Source of the DNA: Oceanospirillaceae bacterium
GTDB taxonomy: Bacteria > Pseudomonadota > Gammaproteobacteria > Pseudomonadales > Litoribrevibacteraceae
Direction: 5' to 3'
Assembly (NCBI GenBank): GCA_015665455.1
Contig: JADFAD010000002.1
Span: 248,001 to 312,000 of the forward strand
Length of the DNA: 64,000 nt
Shown: positions 43,889 to 60,685 of the stretch, piece by piece
How positions within the stretch are numbered: position 1 is the first letter of the stretch
How the letters are laid out: every line of letters starts with the position of its first letter
The notes under the pieces: generated by a model
Database searches by the model: none
Told to the model about the DNA's origin: nothing
Seen by the model: the letters and a program-made list of their open reading frames with translations, nothing else
Translations under genes and position numbers: made by a program

Positions 43889-45214
43889 TCAAAGATGTAT
43901 ACCGCCTTCTGCTAACCCGATAACACGTAGATCTCGATACCAGCGCTCAACAGGGTGCTCTTTTGTGAACCCATGACCGCCTAGGAGCTGCACACCGTTA
44001 GTTGCTATATTCATCGCTTTTTCAGCACACATAACTTTGGCTAAAAAAGCTTCCTTCTGAAAGTTGAGGCCATTCTCTGCTCGACTGACAGCTCTAAGCG
44101 TCAGCATTCGCATGGATTCCAAATCAATCTTCATATCTGAAATCATGAACGCAACGGACTGTCTTTGACTGATGGGCTCTCCAAAGGCAACACGCTCATT
44201 ACAGTAAGGAATAACGTAATCTAGAATTGCCTGACAAGTTCCTATGGCTAATGAACACCAGCCCAGCCGAGAGTTATCTACAAACGCCTGATAACTGAAC
44301 TCCTTATCCAGTCCCAACCTTTGCGCCTTATTCACTTCAACATTATCAAGCTTCAATCGGGCCAGAGAAGAAGCTCTAATTCCCATGCTGTTATCTTCTT
44401 TAACTGACAGACCTAACGTCGAGCTTTCAACAATGAATACGGCTTGCTCAGTCTCTTGGTTATCTTCAATTACTTTTGCAGCAACCAAATATAATTCTGA
44501 ATTTAATCCAACGGGGACCAAACTCTTTACCCCATTTAAAACATACGAGTTGCCAATTACTTTCGCCGTTGTTTTTAAATCATAAGGGTCGAATAGGGGT
44601 GTAGGTTCATTAACCGCAATAGAAGCCACAGGTGAATCATCGTCTAGAAATGTAGGTAGATATTTTCCCTGCTGCTCAGCCGAACCCCATTGCGATATTG
44701 CACTGGCTACACCAATAGGAGCCATTAAAGAAATCGCTGTTCCCATGTCTCCGTAGGCAAGATCCTCTGTAATCAGAGCGTTGGTCATTTGACTTCTTTG
44801 TGCTGCAGCGCCACCCAGTGATTCAGGTATTGAGCAATAAATTAAGCCCAGCGTTTGAGCTTGTAGGAAAATATCCTGCGCCGTTTTGCAGGCGTCATTT
44901 GCTTCGGCTGAAATAGGTCTAATAACTTCCGTCGAAAACCGTTGAACATTCTCACGAATCATTTTCTGTTCGTCACTGATGTTCAAATCAAATAAGTTAT
45001 TCCCTTGTTTAGGAGCGGTTAACCGAGCTGGATTTAAAAGTTTATTAACTGCTTTGAATTGCCTAGAGGCTAGACCAACGGCTTGAAAGCCTTTCTTTGT
45101 TGATGAATAACTTATTGTCTCAATCAATTTCCTAAGCCCAAACTTGTCAGCTAAGGATGATCCAGCAAATTGATTCAGCACTGATAAAGCAAAACCTGTT
45201 GCATCTCTACTCAT
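43889..45214 (-). CDS. Acyl-CoA dehydrogenase family protein, extended N-terminus and short C-terminus
   Basis: 441 residues. An unusual ~75-residue N-terminal segment (LADKFGLRKLIETISYSSTK) precedes the acyl-CoA dehydrogenase fold (after FDLNISDEQKMIRENVQRF). The usual ITEPGAGSD segment is replaced by IAVNEPTPLFDPYD. The protein stops at GLAEGGIHL, just after the catalytic-Glu position, lacking the normal EGT-x-x-IQ and last helix. It may be an altered-specificity enzyme or a non-catalytic partner of the adjacent gene. AAGGAG precedes the ATG. Confidence 0.88.
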   Translation of the reverse strand: MSRDATGFALSVLNQFAGSSLADKFGLRKLIETISYSSTKKGFQAVGLASRQFKAVNKLLNPARLTAPKQGNNLFDLNISDEQKMIRENVQRFSTEVIRPISAEANDACKTAQDIFLQAQTLGLIYCSIPESLGGAAAQRSQMTNALITEDLAYGDMGTAISLMAPIGVASAISQWGSAEQQGKYLPTFLDDDSPVASIAVNEPTPLFDPYDLKTTAKVIGNSYVLNGVKSLVPVGLNSELYLVAAKVIEDNQETEQAVFIVESSTLGLSVKEDNSMGIRASSLARLKLDNVEVNKAQRLGLDKEFSYQAFVDNSRLGWCSLAIGTCQAILDYVIPYCNERVAFGEPISQRQSVAFMISDMKIDLESMRMLTLRAVSRAENGLNFQKEAFLAKVMCAEKAMNIATNGVQLLGGHGFTKEHPVERWYRDLRVIGLAEGGIHL

Positions 45215-49709: not shown

Positions 49710-51015
<1,306 letters not shown>

Positions 51016-54335: not shown

Positions 54336-55337
54336 ATGTATTCTCTAAGACCGGCAAAACAAACGGATATTTCAGACATTTTAACCTTGGCATGTGAACA
54401 AGGGTCCTGCCATGCAAGCCTACCCAAAACAGACGAAGCGATAAGATCTGTTATCCAAACCAGTGAAGACGCATTCAGAAATCCCAGCGATCAACCCAGC
54501 CTCACAGGTAACTATTTTTGGGTCCTTTCTAAAGAGAGTGCGATCGTTGGAACCATCGCAATTGAAGCTTTTACAGGTCAAAAAGAACCGTTTTATAGCT
54601 ATCGGAGAGAAACATTAATTAACGCCAGCTATCGCCTTAAGGTAAAACAATCCATTCCTGTTTTATACCAATCCCATGAGCTGGCAGGGTACTCTCAATT
54701 ACATTCAATAACGCTTCACCCTAAACATAGAACCTCCAGTACCATTGCGCTACTCATCCAAGGCGTCATTCTCTATATTTCAGAGCATCCCGAGAACTTC
54801 AGTTCAAAGTTATTAATTGAATTCCCGGGGTTTAAAGATGAAAGGGGAGAATCTCCTTTATGGAATGATCTTGGATTGCATTTTTTCCAAATGAGCCTAA
54901 AGCAAGCCTGCTATCACGCCAGTGTCGAAGATAAAGCACTCATAGCACAGCTTATGCCGAACCATCCTTTATATGAAAATTTACTGAGCAGTACGAGTCA
55001 ATCAACCCTTGGGGAACCCCAACAAGATCTAGATGATTACTATCAATCGTTCATAAGAGAAGGTTTCCGACCATCCAACCACATAGACATCTTTGATGGA
55101 GGCCCATGCCTAACGTGTCAATCATCAAACAGTTGGTCCCAACAAGAAAATGCACGAACTCGTCTCGATGTCCTTCCCGTTCTCAGCCATGAAACCATTG
55201 TCATGAATGTAAACAAAGAACAGCCCATCGTTGTCCTTGTGGGTGTAGAGCAAAGAGACAACGCCATAGCCACTTTAAACCTATCACCGAGTTCATGGAT
55301 TCGCTGGGTACCTATAAATACAGAGGAGGGCTATTGA
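54336..55337 (+). CDS. Arginine/ornithine N-succinyltransferase-like protein (AstA family, divergent, first copy)
   Basis: 333 residues from the ATG after GAGGAG; a TTG one codon earlier is less likely. The AstA pattern is recognisable: LRPAKQTDISDILTLA, EPFYSYRRETLINAS, RGESPLWNDLGLHFFQ, IAQLMPNHPLYENLL and DIFDGGP. It is less conserved than the next gene and has a variable C-terminus. By comparison with Pseudomonas AruF/AruG, the two adjacent genes probably form the alpha and beta subunits of one enzyme that succinylates arginine at the alpha-amino group. The stop overlaps the next start (TGATG). Confidence 0.85.
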   Translation: MYSLRPAKQTDISDILTLACEQGSCHASLPKTDEAIRSVIQTSEDAFRNPSDQPSLTGNYFWVLSKESAIVGTIAIEAFTGQKEPFYSYRRETLINASYRLKVKQSIPVLYQSHELAGYSQLHSITLHPKHRTSSTIALLIQGVILYISEHPENFSSKLLIEFPGFKDERGESPLWNDLGLHFFQMSLKQACYHASVEDKALIAQLMPNHPLYENLLSSTSQSTLGEPQQDLDDYYQSFIREGFRPSNHIDIFDGGPCLTCQSSNSWSQQENARTRLDVLPVLSHETIVMNVNKEQPIVVLVGVEQRDNAIATLNLSPSSWIRWVPINTEEGY

Positions 55338-56395
55338 TGTTTGTACGGCCCATTCAAGAATCAGATCTAGACTCTTTATTCCATTTGGCGTCATCGGTTG
55401 GTGTTGGAATGAACAGCTTGCCAGCCGATAAAGATTTCTTAGCAAAAAAAATAGACCGAGCAGTAAAATCCTTTCATCAAAACCTCCCAAAAGAGCAGGC
55501 CAGTTATTTATTTGTTTTAGCCAATTCTGACAATCAAGTTTTAGGTGTTTGTGGCATCGAAGCATCCATCGGTTGGGACGAACCTTGGTATACCTACCGC
55601 ATCAGCCAAATGGTACATGCCTGCCAAGACATCAATATTTATAGCAATACCCCAACACTGTTTCTTACTAATGATCAGATTGGATACTCAGAGCTTTGCT
55701 CTTTACTTTTACACCCGGATGCCCGAGGAAAAAAGAACGGCCCTCTGCTAAGTCGAGCTCGATTCCTATTTATCCATCAGTTTCGACAACTCTTTGCCAA
55801 AAAAATATTTGCTGAAATGCGAGGATACAACGACCAGCAAGGGCAATCTCCATTCTGGGATAACTTGGGGAAAAAATTCTTCAACATGGAGTTTGAGCGA
55901 ATAGACTTCTTAACAGGACGAGGTCAGCGATCAATCATTGCGGAGCTCATGCCTAAATACCCGGTATACAGCCACTTACTGTCTGATGCAGCCAGAGAAT
56001 GCTTCGGCAAGGTCCATCCAAACACTCAACCCGCATTAGAAATGCTTAAACAAGAAGGATTAAGGTTTGAAAACTACATAGCTATTTTTGATGGCGGGCC
56101 CGTCATGGAAGCCTACATTGATGATTTACGCCTGATCAATCAATCCCACTCTCTGACCGCCAAGGAATTAACAGACCAACACCAAATGATAGAAGACCAA
56201 GCGCCACTGCTGCTTTCAAATAATTCATTGGAAAACTTTCGTTCAACATTGAGTTTTCATTACCAGTTCGAAGATCAAACAATACGACTCCCTAAAGAAG
56301 TGTTGTTAGAACTCAATCTACAAGAAAGTGACGTTACCGTCGCTCCTCTGTACGCCAAAGATGCACTTATTACAGAACCCAAGGCAACATCATGA
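55337..56395 (+). CDS. Arginine/ornithine N-succinyltransferase (AstA/AruG family, second copy)
   Basis: 352 residues from ATG with GAGGAGG eight bases upstream. Conserved AstA segments: FVRPIQESDLDSLFHLAS, SLPADKDFLAKKI, NTPTLFLTNDQIGYSELCSL, GQSPFWDNLGKKFFNMEF, IAELMPKYPVYSHLL and AIFDGGP. This is the better-conserved member of the pair. It transfers succinyl from succinyl-CoA to arginine, the first step of the AST pathway. It overlaps astD by four bases (ATGA), so the genes are translationally coupled. Confidence 0.92.
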   Translation: MFVRPIQESDLDSLFHLASSVGVGMNSLPADKDFLAKKIDRAVKSFHQNLPKEQASYLFVLANSDNQVLGVCGIEASIGWDEPWYTYRISQMVHACQDINIYSNTPTLFLTNDQIGYSELCSLLLHPDARGKKNGPLLSRARFLFIHQFRQLFAKKIFAEMRGYNDQQGQSPFWDNLGKKFFNMEFERIDFLTGRGQRSIIAELMPKYPVYSHLLSDAARECFGKVHPNTQPALEMLKQEGLRFENYIAIFDGGPVMEAYIDDLRLINQSHSLTAKELTDQHQMIEDQAPLLLSNNSLENFRSTLSFHYQFEDQTIRLPKEVLLELNLQESDVTVAPLYAKDALITEPKATS

Positions 56396-57870
56396 AAGTT
56401 CGCCAAGACCTCTACATCGATGGTCAATGGCAGGCCGGAATGGGAAACAGCTTTTGCTCAAAAGAACCCGCCAGCCAAACAATTATCTGGGAAGGACGAG
56501 GTGCCAATGAAGGCCAAGTCTCACAAGCGGTAGAAGCGGCACAAGAAGCATTTAAATCATGGCGTACGCTGAGCGCCTCGGAACGATTAAAATATTTACA
56601 TAATTTCGAACAACTTATCCACAAGCACAAGAGCCATTTGATTGATGCCCTATGCCATGACACTGGGCGACCACAGTGGGAAGTTCAAACAGAAGCCCAA
56701 GCCGTCGCAGACAAGACGCACTTAGCTTATCAAGCCTATCAACAAAGAACAGGTGAAAAGATCATTGCAAGCACCGGAGGACATATCCAATTACGTCATA
56801 GAGCTCATGGCGTGATTGCGGTCATTACGCCGTTCTCGTTCCCTGCATCTATCAGCATTGGACACATCATTCCTGCACTTCTGGCTGGTAATAGCGTTGT
56901 GTATAAGAGCAGTGATATGACCCCCAAAACGGCAGATTTTATCGCTCAACTCTGGCAACAAAGCGGACTTCCAGCCGGTGTTTTCAATTTAATCCAGGGG
57001 GATAGTCAGGTAGCAGAACAACTTGTGAATAACCCCAAAATAAACGGAGTTCTATTTACAGGAAAAACATCAACAGGCATAAAAATAAATCAAGCAATGG
57101 CAAGCCATCCTGAAAAACTGGTCTGTCTGAATATGAGCTCTAACAATCCTTTAATCGTAGGTGAAACAACTCAAGTAAAGGCCACCCTCTATCAGATTTT
57201 ACACTCAGCATTTATTACTACAGGGCAACGGTGCTCAAATGCTCGCCGTTTATTTTTGCCTGATACCGCTCAAGGTGACCACATATTGGAACAATTGGTA
57301 GAGCAATGTCATTTACTTTCTATTGGCCAATACGATGAACATCCAAGCCCCTTCATGGGTCCCGTCATCAACATTACTTCAGCAAAGCTCATTATCAAGC
57401 AGCAGCAATTGCTACTTTCCCTTGGTGCAAACGTATTACTTAGCGCACATCAAGCGGATGAAAACAGCGCGTTCATAACACCAGGGTTATTAGATGTTAG
57501 CCAACTTAAACAACCTTTTGACGAAGAAATTTTTGGTCCCGTGCTCCAAATATCACGTTACAAAAAATTTGAAAACGCAGTTGAACAAGCCAATAACAGT
57601 AAATTTAGACTGACCGCAGGTTTAATAAGCGATCAACAGAGCCAGTTTGATGAATTTGATTGCACTATCCAATCGGGTGTAGTTAACTGGAACCAGCCAA
57701 TAACAGGCGTCAGTGGTGCAGCACCATATGGTGGCATCGGGCTAAGTGGCAACCACCGACCAGGAGGATGGTATTCAGCGGATTATTGTGCGTATCCAAC
57801 CACAACAATGTGCCAACAAGGAGTTTCCTTCCCGTCCTCTCCCATACCTGGCATTAACTTGAGCAGCTAA
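56392..57870 (+). CDS. Succinylglutamate-semialdehyde dehydrogenase-like (AstD family) with altered active site
   Basis: 492 residues, the AstD length, and alignable throughout (DLYIDGQWQAGMGN, GHIIPALLAGNSVVYK, FITTGQRCSNARRLF, APYGGIGLSGNHRPGGWYSA). The nucleophile Cys is kept (Cys281 in GQRCSN). However, the general-base Glu in the usual LEMGGNN is Asn247 (LNMSSNN), and the transition-state Asn in PFNFP is Ser149 (PFSFP). The cofactor motif KPSE is KSSD and FTGS is FTGK. This family normally oxidises succinylglutamate semialdehyde with NAD. These changes suggest reduced, different or lost activity. Confidence 0.87.
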   Translation: MKVRQDLYIDGQWQAGMGNSFCSKEPASQTIIWEGRGANEGQVSQAVEAAQEAFKSWRTLSASERLKYLHNFEQLIHKHKSHLIDALCHDTGRPQWEVQTEAQAVADKTHLAYQAYQQRTGEKIIASTGGHIQLRHRAHGVIAVITPFSFPASISIGHIIPALLAGNSVVYKSSDMTPKTADFIAQLWQQSGLPAGVFNLIQGDSQVAEQLVNNPKINGVLFTGKTSTGIKINQAMASHPEKLVCLNMSSNNPLIVGETTQVKATLYQILHSAFITTGQRCSNARRLFLPDTAQGDHILEQLVEQCHLLSIGQYDEHPSPFMGPVINITSAKLIIKQQQLLLSLGANVLLSAHQADENSAFITPGLLDVSQLKQPFDEEIFGPVLQISRYKKFENAVEQANNSKFRLTAGLISDQQSQFDEFDCTIQSGVVNWNQPITGVSGAAPYGGIGLSGNHRPGGWYSADYCAYPTTTMCQQGVSFPSSPIPGINLSS

Positions 57871-57922: not shown

Positions 57923-59137
57923 ATGACAAACAGATCGACCTTCGATGACGTCATGGTCCCTAATTATTCACCCTTAGCAGTCATTCCTTCTCATGGAAAA
58001 GGAAGTCGTTTATGGGATGAAGATAATAATGAATATATTGATTTAGCGGGTGGTATCGCAGTATCCAGCTTAGGCCACTGCCACCCAAAATTAGTCCAAA
58101 CGCTTCAACAACAAACAGCGCAGCTATGGCATGTCAGTAATGTAATGACCAACCAGCCCGCTCTACGTTTGGCGACAAAACTAACAGAACTGACATTTGC
58201 GGAAAAAGTCTATTTCTGTAATTCCGGCGCGGAAGCCAATGAGGCCGCACTTAAGTTAGCACGTAAGTATGCCTTTGATAAATTTGGTGCGGAAAAAACT
58301 GAAATCATTTCGTTCAGTAACTCTTTCCACGGCCGAACGTTGTTTACAGTCTCCGCAGGAGGCCAAGCCAAATATTCAGATGGTTTTGGGCCTTTACCGA
58401 GCGATATTAAGCATGCAACATTTAATGATCTTGCTTCCGTCGAAGCGATCATTTCAGATAAAACATGCTCTGTAATTGTTGAGCCTATTCAAGGCGAAGG
58501 GGGGGTTTCTTCAGCCTCAAAAGATTTTTTGAATGGCTTACGTGACCTGTGTGATAAATATAACGCCTCATTAATATTTGATGAGATTCAAACGGGTGCG
58601 GGCCGAATCGGCGAACTTTACGCTTATCAACACTATAATGTGATTCCTGATATTTTGACCTCAGCGAAAGGCTTGGGTGGCGGTTTTCCTTTTGGCGCCA
58701 TGCTCACTTCAACAGAAATAGCGTCTTCTTTTGTTGTTGGTACTCATGGCAGCACTTATGGCGGAAACCCTTTGGCCTGTGCGGTAGCAGAATCCGTCCT
58801 CGATATTATTTCTGATCAGCAGTTATTAGATAACGTAAAGTCTAAACACCGTAAATTCATTGATGGTTTAGATCACATAAATCAACGTCACAATATCTTT
58901 AAAGATATTAGAGGCATGGGCTTACTTATCGGGTGTGAATTGAAACCTGAATACCAAGGTAAAGCTAAGGATTTAATGGATTTAGCCTTAGAACAAAACC
59001 TACTTATCTTAGTTGCTGGTCCTAACGTCATGCGTTTAGCACCTTCGCTTATTATTCCAGACGAAGATATCGCTCAAGGTTTAATGAGTTTAGATAAAGC
59101 CATTGAAAAGTTTTTAGGCAATCAAGCACCGGCTTAA
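57923..59137 (+). CDS. Acetylornithine/succinylornithine aminotransferase (ArgD/AstC family)
   Basis: 404 residues, class III aminotransferase. The PLP Lys is Lys249 in [11 protein letters not shown], the phosphate-binding segment is [16 protein letters not shown] and the Asp is in IFDEIQTG. It would convert succinylornithine to succinylglutamate semialdehyde (AstC), or acetylornithine in arginine synthesis (ArgD); sequence does not separate the two, but it follows astA-astA-astD on the same strand. No astB or astE is in the window, so the pathway here is incomplete. Confidence 0.9.
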
Positions 59138-59504: not shown

Positions 59505-60032
59505 ATGTTTAATGAACAACAACTGAATCAATTGTATAAATATGCGTATTCACTATCTAAAAATAAAGACGATGCTTATGACCTTGTATACAACTCTTTA
59601 GAACGCTATCTCCAGCAAGAAAAACCTAAAAACGAAGCGATGGCCTATATAAAGAGATCCATTAAGAATGCATTTATTGATCATTTAAAATCCTCCCGCC
59701 ATCGGAAAGAAGTGTATTTAGAGGATTCGCTAACACAGGATGACAATAGTAATCCCTCGGCAAGCTTTGATAATTTAATAGATATCAATACAAACTGTTT
59801 GGAAGAAACGCTGATTAATGAACAACAGGTATCTGCATTTACAGAACAATTAAATACTGAAGAAAATGAGCTGCTCTATTACTGGGCAGTGGAAGGCTAT
59901 ACAGTGCAAGAGCTTTCTGATGAAACAGGTAAGCCTAAGGGCACATTACTGTCTAAACTGCATAGAATCCGCAAAAAAGCAGAACAATTCACATCTCGGA
60001 TCAGCCAATTAAATACCGGGAGAATTCTATGA
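59505..60032 (+). CDS. ECF-type RNA polymerase sigma factor
   Basis: 175 residues. Region 2 (LYKYAYSLSKNKDDAYDLVYNS, about 10-75, with IKRSIKNAFIDHLKSSRHRKE) and region 4 (LLYYWAVEGYTVQELSDETG to KGTLLSKLHRIRKKAEQ, about 115-165) are separated by an acidic linker, the two-domain ECF layout. It is translationally coupled by a four-base overlap to a membrane anti-sigma gene, so it is probably released by a periplasmic signal. The regulon is unknown. Confidence 0.9.
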   Translation: MFNEQQLNQLYKYAYSLSKNKDDAYDLVYNSLERYLQQEKPKNEAMAYIKRSIKNAFIDHLKSSRHRKEVYLEDSLTQDDNSNPSASFDNLIDINTNCLEETLINEQQVSAFTEQLNTEENELLYYWAVEGYTVQELSDETGKPKGTLLSKLHRIRKKAEQFTSRISQLNTGRIL

Positions 60033-60685
60033 CGGATAAAACTCTGAAAGAGGCCATTCAGGATCAATATAAAGCGGTCCAACTCACCGACGATCAACTG
60101 AACCAGTTGGATCAATTACAAGCAAAACATCAAGTAAACAAACAGGTTTCAGGTAAAAAAAGCTCGATTAATTATTACGGCTTGGCCGCTGCAATCACGG
60201 TCACGTTACTGTTAGGTTTAATGTTTGGCAGTCAATTTACGACGTTTAATTCCGACTCACAAGATACCATTGCTCAAGGAGAGTCTTCGGACTTATTTCG
60301 TCGGGTTGCAGAAGAAGTAACGTTAAACCATCGAAAACTACGCCCCTTAGAAGTCACGACCAATAGCTTTGATGAAATTCGAGGGTACTTCACTCAATTG
60401 GATTTTCGACCAAGCAGTTCAAACATCTTCAACCCAAAAGACAGCACTTTAATAGGTGGGCGTTATTGCTCCATTGAAGGCATTACTGCCGCACAAATAC
60501 GCTATCAAAATAGTGCAGGCGAAATGACAACCTTGTATGAGACGGCTTACAAACCGTCCGTATTTAAAGGATTTCCAAACGTAGACCAAGGAAAACAACC
60601 TATAATTCAGTATACAGACGGTTATAAAGTATCTCTCTGGATGGAAAAGGGGTTAATAATGGCTGCCGTTACAGCCCCCGAATAG
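60029..60685 (+). CDS. Membrane-anchored anti-sigma factor
   Basis: 218 residues: a cytoplasmic N-terminal helical part (1-45, LTDDQLNQLDQLQAKHQVNK), one membrane helix (about 49-68) and a periplasmic domain (about 70-218). The latter contains GGRYCSIEGITAAQIRY and ends in WMEKGLIMAAVTAPE. It overlaps the sigma gene by four bases. The N-terminal part is short and lacks an obvious zinc-binding HxxxCxxC, so it is not a ZAS-type anti-sigma. It probably holds the sigma factor at the membrane until a signal is received. Confidence 0.78.
   Translation: MTDKTLKEAIQDQYKAVQLTDDQLNQLDQLQAKHQVNKQVSGKKSSINYYGLAAAITVTLLLGLMFGSQFTTFNSDSQDTIAQGESSDLFRRVAEEVTLNHRKLRPLEVTTNSFDEIRGYFTQLDFRPSSSNIFNPKDSTLIGGRYCSIEGITAAQIRYQNSAGEMTTLYETAYKPSVFKGFPNVDQGKQPIIQYTDGYKVSLWMEKGLIMAAVTAPE

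Follow-up and report, generated by a model that had tools for sequence, protein, structure and literature searches.

The window analysed here is a stretch of 64,000 nucleotides from an Oceanospirillaceae bacterium (contig JADFAD010000002.1, positions 248,001 to 312,000 of the forward strand). Judged from its letters, it holds a paralogous cluster of four genes, aruF*-aruG*-astD*-astC* (asterisks mark the members of this cluster), which lacks astB and of which AstD* is one member. The cluster adjoins the replication-origin genes (dnaA, dnaN). Its genes are:

aruF*, 54336..55337, + strand, divergent paralogue of the arginine/ornithine succinyltransferase alpha subunit, 333 aa from ATG
aruG*, 55337..56395, + strand, succinyltransferase beta subunit / AstA paralogue, 352 aa from ATG 55337
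astD*, 56392..57870, + strand, AstD-family protein, 492 aa, with Cys281 kept, E247 replaced by N and N149 replaced by S
astC*, 57923..59137, + strand, succinylornithine/acetylornithine aminotransferase paralogue, 404 aa

A paralogous cluster in addition to a canonical ast operon

The listed open reading frame of aruF* begins at TTG 54333, and a longer start of aruG* at 55295 is also open. With the ATG at 55337, aruF* and aruG* share one base; the start of astD* overlaps the stop of aruG* by four bases, and astC* follows 52 bases downstream. On the curated score models, AruF* fell below two cut-offs (TIGR03243, 250.3 bits against 284.35; TIGR03245, 240.9 bits against 458.8), AruG* exceeded one (TIGR03244, 409.1 bits against 391), and AstC* reached 673.9 bits on TIGR03246. 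AstD* scored 583.8 bits on TIGR03240 (AstD), passing the equivalog cut-off of 579.3 by a narrow margin. Identity between each star protein and the canonical copy of the same genome was 35% for AruF, 42% for AruG, 42% for AstD and 60% for AstC. That the cluster as a whole is a paralogous copy was absent from the first-pass annotation, which dealt with astD*.

The window's own genome (G000) also carries a normal astC-aruF-aruG-astD-astB operon on C1 (L038), and a search of the same genome placed astE at C1:479251-480234. A second, canonical astD, which the first-pass annotation had proposed to look for, is thus present (G000:C1:612981-614429; 823.4 bits on TIGR03240), and the idea that AstD* is the only AstD of this genome was rejected. 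A normal operon of the same order is found in G001, a genome of another genus (L040), with genes 81-88% identical to those of G000. Since both genomes carry it, the normal pathway is independent of AstD*.

The orthologous cluster of a second genus

In a search of 56 related genomes we found an orthologue of AstD* (L039), 70% identical, in G001, the sole other genome of the same family among those searched. Its active-site letters read SFSFP, KGSE, FTGT, LNMSANN and GQRC. The gene neighbours match in the two genomes, with what we take to be dnaN and dnaA on one side and astC*, a sigma-like gene and a presumed yidC on the other, the names dnaA, dnaN and yidC having been recognised from the sequence rather than by family search.

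We then considered how widely a second AstD copy occurs. An AstD match at E <= 1e-110 was obtained in 140 of the 390 genomes of the order, and two matches only in G000 and G001, at most four candidates being scored per genome, so that an additional, divergent copy might have escaped. When every candidate was scored in the 56 related genomes at the same threshold, two matches were again seen only in these two. The AruF* query (E <= 1e-70) likewise matched only G000 and G001 among the 390 genomes. A class-wide sample of 369 genomes gave an AstD* match at E <= 1e-144 only in the own genome; G001 would have matched and must therefore lie outside this sample. When named genomes were scanned with two peptide patterns (87 relatives, of which 80 were kept), nothing closer than 44% identity was obtained, in a set from which records of, or close to, the window's own genome may be absent. 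Literature searches on AstD paralogues, duplicated ast clusters and AstD structure, which left most subscription journals uncovered, returned nothing on point.

Comparison of the two genera gave pN and pS of 0.190 and 0.786 for astD*, 0.273 and 0.765 for aruF*, 0.177 and 0.834 for aruG* and 0.116 and 0.820 for astC* (0.12-0.27 and 0.77-0.83 over the four star genes), and of 0.109 and 0.739 for the canonical astD. We report these values rather than dN/dS because most genes were saturated at synonymous sites; for this comparison minus-strand genes lacked their initial codon and included the stop codon, a shift of one codon at each end, and the reading of some canonical genes began at a longer start. 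Purifying selection on astD* appears strong, as gauged from one orthologue pair.

A gene in decay, or a sequencing or assembly artefact, could account for the faster evolution of AstD*, which is 70% identical between the genera compared with 84% for the canonical AstD. Against this, the frames are intact in two separate genomes, the neighbourhood and the two substitutions are common to both, and pN lies well below pS in all four star genes. The second-genus orthologue, with its intact frame and the same substitutions, led us to reject decay or artefact, to which we give only a very slight chance. The first-pass annotation had argued against simple decay, and had named changes unique to this genome under relaxed selection as what would overturn its view; the orthologue, together with a pN far below the saturated pS, bears its argument out. 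AstD* combines two marks of a pseudoenzyme, in that conserved catalytic residues are missing and the gene seems to be maintained by selection, the latter seen in one pair.

The AstD* stem in the tree of AstD sequences measured 1.98 changes per column; its two tips measured 0.20 and 0.26, and those of the canonical pair 0.13 and 0.07. The tree program marked the G000 AstD* as deviating from the other rows in its letter composition. These lengths point to a burst of change before the genera split, followed by constraint. The star genes do not join their own canonical copies in the trees, and AU tests left a grouping of star and own canonical genes unrejected (p = 0.159 for AstC, with the rows of L166-L168 and short rows omitted; p = 0.0772 for AstD). 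The cluster may thus have arisen by duplication inside the family or have been acquired.

The active site of AstD*

The frame of astD* is open and its product spans positions 1-483 of 484 of TIGR03240 in the profile search, so that the first-pass description of an intact, full-length gene stands; Pfam recognised a single family, Aldedh (360.6 bits). The active-site letters of AstD* are PFSFP (S149), KSSD (172-175), FTGK (222-225), LNMSSNN (N247) and GQRC (C281). We aligned them with 43 non-identical canonical AstD rows drawn from the best-scoring loci, of which 39 came from the 138 other AstD-matching genomes of the order sample (15 via the 56-genome search) and the remainder were two own-family copies and 2 contigs of the named-genome scan. 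N149, E247, P173, E175, S225, G249, G250 and C281 were each invariant in 43/43 canonical rows, and among these eight positions AstD* retains Cys alone; Lys172, Glu379 and Phe381 are also retained. The three catalytic assignments made earlier were confirmed, as both AstD* orthologues have the Cys of GQRC (C281), Asn in place of the general-base Glu and Ser in place of the oxyanion-hole Asn. Conservation among orthologues, which had been proposed as a check, was found in part: the E to N and N to S changes recur in the second genus, whereas the KPSE and FTGS sites are altered in both orthologues with letters that differ (KSSD/KGSE, FTGK/FTGT) and are not fixed. The change is wider than the first-pass annotation described: of 137 near-invariant columns (at least 97% invariant in canonical AstD rows), 32 were changed in each of the two AstD* copies and a further 12 in a single copy, including G249S, T282S, C283N and most of 145-156. 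Canonical rows, left out one by one, departed at a mean of 1.9 near-invariant columns and at 16 at the highest.

Published work on aldehyde dehydrogenases (ALDHs) assigns Glu268 to the deacylating water (PMC8160307, PMC4286809) and describes an oxyanion hole formed by the side chain of the Asn together with the backbone of the Cys (PMC10599462). Replacement of Glu by Ala is reported to leave sulfolactaldehyde dehydrogenase with 1/63,000 of wild-type activity (PMC10599462); in 2-aminomuconate-semialdehyde dehydrogenase, steady-state activity was no longer detectable and a thiohemiacetal accumulated (PMC4286809). In crystals of the E268A enzyme the thiohemiacetal was slowly converted to the thioacyl enzyme (PMC4286809), and hydride transfer is therefore slowed, not abolished.

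AstD* could still be an ordinary dehydrogenase with an unusual base, either another residue or a water ordered by Asn247, and perhaps with another substrate. It keeps Cys281, Lys172, Glu379 and Phe381 and passes the equivalog cut-off of TIGR03240, and an NADP-dependent ALDH in which Glu replaces a Ser that contacts the coenzyme, probably the Ser of FTGS, is functional (PMC5121451). Against this reading, Glu and Asn are invariant in all canonical rows, the Gly-Gly after the Glu is lost as well (S249, S/A250), and Glu-to-Ala changes carried the costs given above; we consider it improbable. The earlier emphasis on the cofactor site is upheld in so far as its letters are altered, and is weakened by the differences at these sites between the two orthologues, of which the one in the second genus keeps E175, and by the same NADP-dependent enzyme.

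In the oxyanion, base and Cys loops, 13 of 30 near-invariant columns show an identical change in both orthologues, compared with 1 of 17 in the NAD loops (Fisher p = 0.008; this and the following p values are descriptive, the loop classes having been chosen after the substitutions were seen). Sites differing between the orthologues made up 6/17 columns of the NAD loops and 4/30 of the pocket loops, which was not a significant difference (p = 0.14). Pocket and NAD loops together were altered at 24 of 47 columns, against 20 of the remaining 90 (p = 0.001), the other 70 being kept in both AstD* copies. Within the Cys loop, both orthologues retain 7 of the 9 near-invariant columns. Loops were assigned by residue roles that we take to be those of ALDH2. 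Such a distribution is consistent with a remodelled pocket and gives a hint of a less tight cofactor site. We considered whether AstD* had changed chiefly by losing the ability to bind NAD, a claim that the retention of Lys172, Glu379 and Phe381 does not allow.

A structure model of AstD*, built on 12 sequences, had a mean pLDDT of 81.5 and a pTM of 0.83, with residues 441-471 below 50; this segment presumably corresponds to a part near the active site in ALDHs. Its best fold match was the AstD 3ju8 (Z 50.0, rmsd 1.9 over 459), followed by 4kna, 5u0l and then, among the best 50 matches, other ALDHs at Z 42.5-45.2. According to the model AstD* keeps the ALDH fold, a result that is silent on activity. 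AstD* thus resembles AstD (TIGR03240; PDB 3ju8, 4kna, 5u0l) in its full-length homology with 38-45% identity to canonical copies, in its fold (Z 49-50), in the Cys of GQRC and in Arg285-Arg286, and in being clustered with succinyltransferase subunits and AstC. It differs in the replaced general-base Glu, oxyanion Asn and Gly-Gly, in the altered KPSE and FTGS, and in a cluster without astB while the canonical AstD lies elsewhere in the same genome.

The conserved columns outside the pocket and NAD loops and the intact modelled fold would suit a purely structural protein, a scaffold or heteromer partner of AstC*, AruF*G* or the canonical AstD with Cys281 bearing no ligand. Human ALDH16, which lacks the Cys and is termed a pseudoenzyme and proposed binding protein (PMC8160307), offers a precedent. 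Compared by description only, ALDH16 and AstD* are both maintained ALDH-fold proteins that have lost catalytic residues; the human protein lost its Cys and bears a large additional C-terminal domain (PMC8160307), whereas AstD* keeps the Cys. That Cys281 and most of its loop are kept is more than a pure scaffold seems to need, and a solely structural role is unlikely.

Possible roles of AstD* and other genes of the window

AstD* might also be a CoA-acylating, or other nucleophile-accepting, semialdehyde dehydrogenase, which would oxidise the aldehyde to a thioester at Cys281 and then acylate CoA or an amine rather than water, as methylmalonate-semialdehyde dehydrogenase (MMSDH; TIGR01722, ALDH6) does in the absence of the Glu. 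MMSDHs, which use CoA, were compared in an alignment of 8 loci from relatives and the own canonical pair. Glu is absent from the aligned motif in 8/8 MMSDHs, as it is from AstD*, and its loss is therefore tolerated where a thiol replaces water. The loop of AstD*, ITPFSFPA, is nearer to IT/SPFNFPA of MMSDHs than to FGPYNFPG of canonical AstD; both proteins thus have a PF-N/S-FPA loop, besides the ALDH fold and a Cys in GQRC/GERC. However, the oxyanion Asn, the KPSE motif and the Ser of FVGS are present in all 8 MMSDHs, and AstD* is changed at all three; its NAD-site letters vary between orthologues; a comparable loop, ISPFNFPL, occurs in a different ALDH of the same genome, and the resemblance may therefore be of little significance; and the MMSDH 1t90, at Z 44.6 in the fold comparison, ranked beneath the AstDs and alongside other ALDHs. 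AstD* scored 172.4 bits on TIGR01722, under the cut-off of 448.5, and the own genome gave no TIGR01722 match at E <= 1e-130. Literature searches on the CoA-acylating mechanism yielded no usable paper on the missing Glu of MMSDH. Because MMSDHs keep the oxyanion Asn and the NAD motifs, we lowered this reading, which we hold to be less likely and indeed rather doubtful.

AstC* is apparently intact, since 2 of 131 near-invariant columns were changed in both orthologues (the only changes counted, with the AstC rows of L166-L168 and short rows left out) and both have K249 and R138. By position these are Lys252 (PLP) and Arg141 of E. coli AstC, whose residue roles are given in PMC3590144; the numbers were matched by motif, without an alignment to the E. 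coli sequence. In a combined AruF/AruG alignment, 4/25 near-invariant columns of AruF* and 3/25 of AruG* were changed in both copies, and the star succinyltransferase may therefore have shifted in substrate or partner. The altered residues common to both genera are R144, F202, A221 and R298 in AruF* and S96, F200 and D249 in AruG*.

Taken together, these results suggest that AstD* is probably not a normal hydrolytic dehydrogenase, a statement that covers our best explanation as well as the non-hydrolytic rivals. In the absence of both Glu and Asn, hydrolytic oxidation of the ordinary kind and at a normal rate appears improbable, and aldehyde binding at Cys281, or a part as structural partner, would be the most likely role. 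As a whole, our preferred reading, which we hold tentatively and at somewhat less than an even chance, is that AstD* is a maintained, lineage-specific pseudo-dehydrogenase in a succinyltransferase/aminotransferase cluster, where an aldehyde would be held at Cys281 rather than oxidised. By analogy with the mutants of other ALDHs, AstD* without its Glu would lack turnover at a useful rate and might retain the aldehyde in the form of a thiohemiacetal. Less surely, AruF*G* would transfer a succinyl group to ornithine or a related diamino acid, AstC* would produce an N-succinyl semialdehyde, AstD* would hold it at Cys281, perhaps partnered with AstC* or the canonical AstD, and its oxidation would fall to the canonical AstD.

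Several points count against this pseudo-dehydrogenase reading. Conservation of the E to N and N to S changes is known from two sequences, a single pair; loss of the oxyanion Asn should weaken stabilisation of the thiohemiacetal, so that aldehyde binding at Cys281 is not assured; the general base could have been replaced by another residue; and the kept NAD-serving positions Lys172, Glu379 and Phe381 appear compatible with NAD binding. The star cluster may instead form a separate pathway, in which the Cys of AstD* would form an adduct with the semialdehyde made by AstC* and pass it to an acceptor other than water or act as carrier or sensor. This we think unlikely; if true, it would be a non-dehydrogenase use of an ALDH cysteine. 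The thioesterase- or transferase-like use of Cys281 proposed in the first-pass annotation is no more than conceivable, and an ALDH-type esterase role is less likely because the esterase and dehydrogenase activities of ALDHs use the same active-site residues (PMC8160307).

Pseudoenzymes of the ALDH family are already known, and AstD* is a catalytically altered paralogue seen here in two genera. The curated score model still names it succinylglutamate-semialdehyde dehydrogenase, and as it passes the TIGR03240 cut-off, automatic annotation would assign to AstD* a reaction that it probably cannot perform. AstD* also offers a clean natural case of an ALDH without general base and oxyanion Asn that has kept its cysteine, with the canonical paralogue as a control in the same cell.

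Three further loci of the window were recorded:

43889-45214, - strand, 441-aa protein, 212.8 bits on an acryloyl-CoA reductase model, far under its cut-off of 640
59505-60685, + strand, sigma-70-like gene (Sigma70_r2, 25.2 bits against a cut-off of 24) and a 218-aa protein
49710-50687, - strand, lipase-like alpha/beta-hydrolase gene (Abhydrolase_1, 64 bits) between dnaN and recF

The 218-aa protein directly after the sigma-70-like gene gave no Pfam match and is possibly its anti-sigma factor. This sigma-like pair adjoins the astD* cluster in both genera, and the 218-aa protein is only 46% identical between them. The lipase-like gene breaks the usual dnaA-dnaN-recF-gyrB order, and an orthologue with 81% identity is found next to dnaN in G001 as well.
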